23,447 bases of DNA from NCBI GenBank assembly GCA_947164805.1, contig CAMUXX010000001.1, positions 1 to 23,447 of the forward strand, given 5' to 3'. Shown here one piece after another: positions 7,203-10,900 of this stretch. Within the stretch, counting starts at the first letter, position 1, and every line of letters starts with the position of its first letter. The position numbers were made by a program, and so were the translations under genes. The stretch is from an uncultured Elusimicrobia bacterium (GTDB lineage Bacteria; Elusimicrobiota; Elusimicrobia; Elusimicrobiales; Elusimicrobiaceae). The notes under the pieces are model-generated. The model worked only from the letters and a program-made list of their open reading frames with translations. It did not search any database and was not told where the DNA came from.

Positions 7203-7979
7203 CTATTTAACCTTCTCTTCTTTTTCTACGGCTGGAGTTTTGGTTGCTTTTGCTTTTGATGTTCTTGGCAACTCCACGCTAAGCCCAAGGGCCTGCAGTT
7301 CTTTTACGAGAACTTTGAAAGATTCCGGTACACCGGGTTGTGTCGGTAACAGACCTTTAACGATGGCTTCATACATTTTGGTTCTTCCGTTAAAATCGTC
7401 TGATTTAACTGTTAAGAATTCCTGTAATGTGTAAGTTGCACCGTAACCTTCAATGGCCCAAACTTCCATTTCACCGAATCTCTGTCCGCCGAATTGTGCT
7501 TTACCGCCTAAAGGTTGGCGTGTAATTAAACTGTACGGACCGGTCGAACGGCTGTGTACTTTATCTTCAACTAAGTGAATAAGTTTCATAATGTACATAT
7601 AGCCAATTGTAACTTTTTCTTCAAAAGGTTCACCTGTGCGACCGTCGTATAAAGTGATACGGCAGTAATCATCTGGTAAATATTGTTCCGGCACACCTTT
7701 TTTACGCAAAACATCTTTTGCTTTTCTGATTTGCTCTTTAACTTCTTCTTCACTTGGACCATCAAAGACAGGGGTTGCTGTATTAATATTTAAGTGGTGC
7801 GCTGCCCAACCAAGCATAACTTCTAAGAGCTGCCCCACGTTCATTCTTGACGGGATACCCAAAGGTGAAAGAACAACATCAAGAGGTGTACCATCCGGTA
7901 AATAAGGCATATCTTCTTCCGGTAAGATTCTGGCAACAATACCTTTGTTACCATGACGGCCGGAGAGTTTATCCCACAC
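7203..7979 (-). CDS. rpoB: RNA polymerase beta subunit, C-terminal part, separated from the rest of rpoB
   Basis: About 257 residues matching the C-terminal end of beta. It begins at [21 protein letters not shown] and runs through [39 protein letters not shown] and EFLTVKSDD. These parts clamp the RNA-DNA hybrid and contact beta'. Its frame differs from that of the upstream rpoB segment. The only upstream start candidate is a GTG at 7979 with no recognisable ribosome site, so this is probably not an independent gene but the displaced 3' part of one rpoB. It ends with TAG, 12 nt before rpoC. Conservation within the fragment is excellent, which argues against long-standing decay. Confidence 0.9.
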
Positions 7980-10900
7980 CAGTCAATGAAGAAGAACTGG
8001 TTAAATAATCATACCAATTAGCGTACTCGTCTGGAAAAACACTGATAGATAATTGACAGATCAGAATATAAACAAACGCTGTTACAACAATTGAAGCAAT
8101 GAATACTTTAACTGATTTATTGACTACAACAGCCAAGTTTTCATCACCTGCTTGCAAGAGTTTAATGTTTGCAATACATTTATTAAGGGCTTTATCTTCT
8201 AATTCTTTATAAAGATTATTAATAGATTCTTGTGCCTTTTTTAAGTCCGCTGCTTTAGTATATTTTTCTTTAGCTTCCTCTAAAGCAATATCCTTTGCTT
8301 CATGTACTGCTGCAATATCTGCAATATGTTCGTCACGAATTTCTTTTAATTTCTTGACGAAATTAGACATTCTGTCGCGTTTTGTTTTTGCAATTTTTTC
8401 TAATTCACTGTCAATGCTTGCAAGGGCTTCACGTTTTTCTTTCGCGGAAACAGCCTCAACAACTTTTTTGGTAATTTTTTCAATTTTATCGTCATAATTC
8501 TTTTCCATGCGGACAAAGACTCTTGTTCCGATAACTTTACCGGTTGTTCCAGGCGGAACGCGAAGTGAAGCATCAACGACATCATCTGCTTTTTTACCGA
8601 AAATTACTTTTAAAAGCCTTTCTTCAGGTGTAAGTTGTTGTTCACCTTTCGGGGTAACTTTACCTACCAAAATATCCCCTGGGCCTACTACTGTTGCCGG
8701 TAAAATAATACCGTCATTATCCAAATGTGCTAAAGTATCATTTGCAATATTTGGGATATCTTTAGTAATTTCTTCCGCACCGAGTTTTGTGCTTCTTGCA
8801 TCAGTAGAGAATTCATGCAAGTGTATGGAAGTTAAAATATCTTCTTTTACTAAACGGTTGGAAATTAAGATGGCGTCTTCGTAGTTATAACCTTCCCAAC
8901 TCATAAAACCAACAAGTAAGTTGCGGCCTAAAGACAAGATACCGTCTTTCATAGCAGGACCGTCAACCAATGTTTGCCCTTCTTTAACGATATCTCCTGT
9001 TTTTACAAGCGGTTTATGGTTAATACATGTATCTTGGTTGGAACGTTTATATTTTATAAGTTCGTATGTATCATATTTGCTGCCTTTTTTATCACCGTCT
9101 TTTGTTTCAACAACTATTAAATCTGCTGAAGACAAAACAACTTTTCCGGCGCGTTTTGCAACAATTGTTGTACCGGAGTCATGGGCAACAATTTCTTCAA
9201 TACCTGTACCTACTAAAGGTGCTTCAGTATTAAGTAAAGGTACACCCTGACGTTGCATGTTACAACCCATCAAAGCACGGTTGGCATCGTCATGTTCCAA
9301 GAAGGGAATCAAAGCCGCTGAAACGCTGATAACTTGCAAAGGTGAAATATCCATATAGTCAACTTCCGTTGGAGTTACGATTGGATAATCTGCCCTAACA
9401 CGGCAAGCAACTTGATCTGTAGCCAAATTACCTTTTGCATCTAATGGGGTATTTGACTGTGCTACCATAAAATCATCTTCCAAATCAGCAGTTAAATAGG
9501 AAACTTCATCTGTTACTTTACCGTTTTTAACTTTTCTAAACGGAGATTCAAGTAAACCATATTCATTAACTTTTGAATAGCATGCTAAAGAAGTGATCAA
9601 ACCGATGTTCGGACCTTCAGGGGTTTCAATCGGGCAAAGACGACCATAATGTGTGTAGTGGACGTCGCGCACTTCAAAGCCTGCACGTTTTCTGTTCAAA
9701 CCACCGGGGCCCAAAGCAGAAAGACGTCTTTTATGTGTAAGTTCGGAAAGAGGGTTAATTTGATCCATAAACTGTGAAAGTTGATGGGTACCGAAAAACC
9801 TTCTGATACAAACACGGATTTGCTGGTCATTAACCAAAGTTCTGGGAGTAATTTTTCTGTTACCGTTTTCTTTGGTCATTTTATCGCGGACTATTTTCGC
9901 CATTTGTGATAAACCAATACGAACCTGGTTTTCCAAAAGTTCACCTATACCGCGTACACGCCTGTTACCCAAGTGGTCAATATCGTCTATTTTGAAGGTG
10001 AAATCTTTATACATTTCATTTGCGACTTCTTCACCTGCGTTTAACGCTAAAAGATATTGCAATGTAACAATAACATCTTGTGTGGATAAAGTTCTTGCAT
10101 TTTCTTTAGGTTTTGCAAATTCTTTATTTTGTTTAGCAAGCCTTTCAAAGAAATAATCAAATTTTTTATTGATTTTGAAACGGCCGACAAAACTTAAATC
10201 ATACCTTTTAATATTCTTGAAAATTAAACTGTCCAAAAAGTGTTCCGCTTGTTCTTTAACAATAAAGTCTTGCCCGCGCATCTTTCTGTAAACTTCATAC
10301 TGGGCTTCGCCTTTTGTTTTGGGTTCATCTTTTTTGTTTGCTTCCAAGGTGACTAAAATACCGGGGTTATCTTGGCGAGGATTACCGCTTAAAACTTTAA
10401 TTGTTTTGATTTTGTTTTCAATTAAGATACCGAAAGTTTTATCATCAATCGGTGTTGCGGCTTTTTCATCTAAGTTCCAAAGAACTTCGCCTTGTTCATT
10501 AACAATATCTTCTGCTGCATAGCGGCCAACGACATTATCAATATCATTTAATTTTACTTGAACGGTTTCCGTAGGGTAGAAAGCCTGTAAAATTTGTGCA
10601 TTTGTTTCAAGGCCGCAAGCGCGTAAAAATGTGGTTGCGAGGAACTTTTTCTTTTTATCAATACGCACCCACAAAACGTTGGCGATATCGAATTGGAATT
10701 CAATCCATGCGCCTCTGTAAGGAATAATGCGGGCAACGTATAATCTTTTACCGAGGGTGCTTTGTTGTTTTTCTTCGTCTTCTTCAAAAATGATACCAGG
10801 GGATCTGTGAAGTTGGCTTACTACAACGCGTTCATCACCGTTGTAAACGAAACAACCTGCTTCTGTCATTACTGGTAAATCACAAAGAAGTATATCCTCT

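Follow-up and report, generated by a model that had tools for sequence, protein, structure and literature searches.

In short-patch double illegitimate recombination, a short foreign piece takes the place of native DNA, and one of the two joins shows an overlap. The same outcome is described for homology-facilitated illegitimate recombination in the account of PMC3240628, and in the chimeric contigs of metagenome-assembled genomes (MAGs) described in PMC8201837 one contig carries fragments of two organisms. The break in rpoB reported here resembles all of these, in that short foreign DNA replaces native bases with an overlap at one join and that sequences of two organisms stand on one contig. 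Unlike both forms of recombination, the event here would disable an essential gene, and it is known from assembled sequence alone; unlike in the chimeric MAG contigs, the foreign part is only about 113–134 nt long, lies inside one gene and has the same genome on both sides. The source of the segment is the gene of an amino-acid permease/HD-domain protein of the Erysipelotrichaceae type (P0002 family); the window has no such gene, only some 48 of the 751 residues. We regard the break as a chimeric join in the metagenome assembly and not as biology, with a probability of about 0.93.

The window, the whole 23,447-nt stretch of DNA analysed, is contig 1 of a bin of 1.07 Mb in 182 contigs that is 80.5% complete with a listed contamination of 0.32%. 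The rpoB break is present in the contig sequence. In the ORF listing, the rpoB frame runs on the minus strand from 11250 through SVKVFIAS, the last serine codon being 8094-8092, and then continues for 40 residues to a stop at 7971-7969; the rest of beta, read from its first 12 residues onwards, is a separate ORF in a different frame (Table 1). The closest RpoB relative, P0011, is an intact protein of 1317 aa whose source name is Elusimicrobiaceae bacterium; it aligned in two pieces, and its residues 1054–1058 fall between them. These ORFs and the two-piece alignment confirmed the preliminary description, according to which beta is normal up to VKVFIAS (residue 1053) and the remainder lies in another frame. 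Its statement that both flanks are perfectly conserved was right in that neither flank showed decay, but at 97% amino acid identity the wording was somewhat strong.

Three genomes of the same genus (G002, G010 and G014) showed 96–97% amino acid identity over residues 1–1053 and have an open rpoB frame of 1317–1321 aa. Their DNA matches the window to 8091 and resumes at 7983 (L008), 7973 (L009) and 7975 (L010), respectively, leaving between the aligned parts 107, 117 and 115 nt in the window vs 10, 20 and 18 nt in the relatives, in agreement with the interruption of about 115 bp at 7977-8091 described previously. The native 10–20 nt of the relatives at the break site fall within the codons of K-R-x4-G. 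For G002 and G014 the comparison was extended further outwards, and both proved collinear with the contig to either side of the break.

Table 1. Features of the interrupted rpoB region in the window.
Feature	Coordinates	Strand	Basis
rpoB codons 1–1053, normal	8092..11250	-	97% to P0011 residues 1–1053; ORF
Word assignable to both genes at the upstream join (21 nt; KVFIAS codons and flanking bases)	8091..8111	-	P0002 FKVFIAS vs VKVFIAS of RpoB relatives; donor identity over 21 nt deduced
Foreign segment from another bacterium's amino-acid permease/HD-domain gene	7978..8090	-	P0002, 95% identical to the 41-aa frame over 98% of its length
Downstream join zone, imperfect likeness to both genes	7971..7983	-	Relatives align from 7983, 7975 or 7973
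rpoB remainder, different frame	7203..7979	-	97% to P0011 residues 1059–1317 (matching 7206-7979); ORF

The GRHGNKG motif was reached by 117 of the 120 RpoB relatives listed (7999 scored), and K-[RK]-x4-G precedes it in all 117, as expected from the earlier claim that this gap normally holds K-R-x-x-x-x-G; the three listed relatives without the motif are 913–1029 aa long. Counted along the motif in the E. coli sequence, the first lysine of K-R-x4-G is presumably beta Lys1065, and that of DKLSG presumably Lys1073. The equivalent of the former is lost in the window rpoB, and the DKLSG lysine is kept in the downstream ORF. Beta Lys1065 and Lys1073 are both reported to contact the initiating nucleotide (PMC3994528).

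A second rpoB, the search for which had been proposed in the preliminary description, was not found in the bin. Its absence is weak evidence, because the completeness of the bin is only 80% and searches of this kind gave no rpoB match in 11 of 60 relatives, including seven of the 50 that are at least 90% complete. The relatives without an rpoB match, among them G006, G007 and G033, include some that are 94–96% complete, and the missing matches probably reflect a limitation of the search or of the sequence collection. Some further features of rpoB were observed in the relatives. In G010, a second partial rpoB (G010:C44:20978-21958) covers residues 1–327 at 99% identity to the window, the main copy being at 96%, and this contig is perhaps a contaminant from a species nearer to that of the window. 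In G004, of the same genus, rpoB was matched piecewise on two contigs (G004:C34:17301-19877 and G004:C65:8219-8479), one piece being in another reading frame, possibly through a further assembly or sequence error. In addition, over window 8092-8500 (RpoB residues about 917–1040), most other same-genus or same-family matches break at about 917–933 and resume at about 966; the stretch at this point is variable, charged and probably coiled-coil in the window lineage and its three close relatives.

For the identification of the extra sequence, the 41-aa insert frame (P0001) was embedded in a 443-aa query from the window and searched as a part of it, which let proteins of a few hundred residues be candidates. 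Nine of 13 candidates fell under E 10; all nine have amino-acid permease domains and eight of them also HD domains. The best match was P0002, a protein of 751 aa with both kinds of domain (E 2.9e-14), residues 243–290 of which match window 7972-8115 at 90%. P0004, also among the nine, bears a source name that makes it an amino acid permease from an Erysipelotrichaceae bacterium. Among three genome-contig matches, L055, a homolog in a MAG named uncultured Mollicutes bacterium, showed 85% DNA identity over 97 nt, L053 a 24-nt DNA match with no ORF of at least 60 aa over the site, and L054 no DNA match to the insert in this comparison. In one further permease/HD homolog, L068 (G277:C15:59717-61954), the match runs through one in-frame TAG. 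Judged by these matches, the extra sequence is a piece of a gene of the Erysipelotrichaceae type for an amino-acid-permease/HD-domain protein of about 750 aa. The nucleotide and translated searches with the insert suggested in the preliminary description led to a permease source, Erysipelotrichaceae- or Mollicutes-like, which differs in organism from the Elusimicrobiaceae rpoB flanks. The bin yielded no further piece of this gene, P0002 matching it at 7972-8115 only.

That the segment is coding sequence of another organism's transporter argues against an intervening sequence, whether excised at the RNA level or skipped during translation; the one point in favour of this reading is the essential nature of rpoB. 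The predicted fold of the segment was no better than that of shuffled sequences (z −1.00; 33 of 200 shuffles as good), and removal alone would not restore the K-R codons, since the native bases are missing. Such an intervening sequence is exceedingly improbable. With the same z value and no Rfam family at the gathering threshold in the window, a self-splicing intron or structured RNA was dropped as a candidate.

DNA related to the segment was sought more widely. Among 224 genomes of the family of G114, a DNA match was found in six, the three best at 79–85% and all six at 74–85% (generally at most three candidates were scored per genome), and a protein match in 14, the best at 80%; at these identities, none of the 224 is near enough to have been the donor. 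The host family was covered by 90 genomes, the window's own included; the insert DNA gave matches in 18 of them at E 0.1 or better, which window aside were short only (best 23 nt, E 4e-4 per genome), and the 41-aa frame gave matches in 18 at E 1 or better, the best outside the window being E 0.09. The insert with some flank gave five short matches besides itself in its own genome (best 26 nt, E 0.008).

The phage and plasmid collections contained no match to the insert DNA, and an exact 28-nt piece of it was absent from the viral contigs searched, which argues against the insertion of a small mobile element. An inverted pair of 10 nt, 90% complementary, lies near both ends (7981-7990 and 8116-8125) as might be expected of such an element, but the 701 nt examined contain 10 inverted pairs in all, and of the two arms of this one, one falls in rpoB and one in coding sequence of the permease. 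The native bases are replaced rather than duplicated, and no direct repeat of the kind left by target-site duplication was found at the segment boundaries. A mobile element is accordingly barely conceivable, and a transposable element was dropped as a candidate on the missing boundary repeat and the unremarkable inverted pair.

The two joins differ. At the upstream join, a permease string of 10 residues stands against VKVFIAS-KRK of RpoB (in a longer view, 15 residues of P0002 vs 11 of the RpoB relatives), and KVFIAS is common to P0002 and RpoB exactly there. It occurs at this place in one of the 15 permease proteins compared, P0002, which is also the best match. The codon TTT precedes the place in nine of the 10 permease loci that yielded sequence (11 given), so the shared word may extend to 21 nt; as the donor DNA was not found (best DNA relatives 79–85%), donor identity over these 21 nt is deduced from the protein. 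At the downstream join, all 15 permease proteins go on with G-L-D and the window with G-V-G-stop. The window there resembles native rpoB with a few mismatches and shows no overlap comparable to the upstream one, so that no long overlap accounts for this join, which is the weakest point of the chimeric-join reading.

The shortest word that common metagenome assemblers use is 21 nt. From base composition, two genomes of 1.07 Mb and 1.5 Mb are expected to share about 1.9 words of 21 nt by chance, and for other DNA the expectation is about 129 per 100 Mb; chance overlaps of 21 nt are therefore to be expected in a gut community. In a control comparison of 23 kb with 66 kb of DNA, which was not screened for homologous genes and includes them only by accident, shared words of 11–17 nt were 1.8 to 5 times above expectation (15 nt: 17 vs 5.8), and no shared word of 19 or 21 nt was found.

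The chimeric join would have come about as follows. A read or a short graph path from an Erysipelotrichaceae-type permease gene, the donor bacterium being presumably present in the same sample, may have been attached to the Elusimicrobiaceae rpoB by way of a word of up to 21 nt that the two genes happen to share and that codes for KVFIAS in both proteins. The other end would have been closed onto the rpoB remainder by a poor overlap, with loss of the native K-R-x4-G codons, and the join would have been made by the assembler, the scaffolder or a chimeric read rather than by the cell. The segment and the word together, about 134 nt, fit one 150-nt read, if this read length is assumed. Such a join explains that the segment is foreign and short, that a word is shared and that an essential part of rpoB is missing. 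It also fits the absence of a second RpoB/permease fusion: of 36 candidates, 12 passed E 0.001 and all 12 were permease/HD proteins of 744–751 aa, in a database clustered at 90% and among proteins of 0.55–1.75 times the query length. Against this reading count the low listed contamination of the bin and the statement in PMC8201837 that misassembly is relatively rare compared with mis-binning.

The same traces, a foreign coding piece, an overlap at one end and the loss of native bases, are expected of one-sided homology followed by illegitimate joining, a process described in bacteria (PMC3240628). A cell might have taken up DNA of a neighbour and exchanged about 20 nt of rpoB for about 117 nt of permease by short-overlap illegitimate recombination, an intact rpoB being present elsewhere or in other cells. 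Recombination would, however, remove the beta Lys1065 equivalent and put a stop into the only rpoB found, the recombinant would have had to outnumber the ordinary sequence in the sample in order to appear in the assembly, and no second fusion was found among the 12 passing candidates. We consider a real recombination very unlikely. Still less likely is a living Elusimicrobiaceae population with a majority allele of rpoB in which short-overlap recombination has put DNA from a transporter gene of another gut bacterium over the active-site segment, beta being supplied from an unassembled second copy.

Among the options of the preliminary description, an assembly or gap-fill error, ranked there as likeliest, is the best supported, by the permease source and the shared word at the upstream join; mixed strains, removal at the RNA level and translational bypass gained no support. 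That description was a correct observation of what is most likely an artefact. The break carries no biological significance and is useful as a caution: a foreign patch of little over 100 nt in one gene, in a bin at 0.32% listed contamination, makes an essential gene look broken and creates a spurious fusion of RpoB with a permease. In similar cases, a word that the two sources have in common at the join is an easy sign to check.
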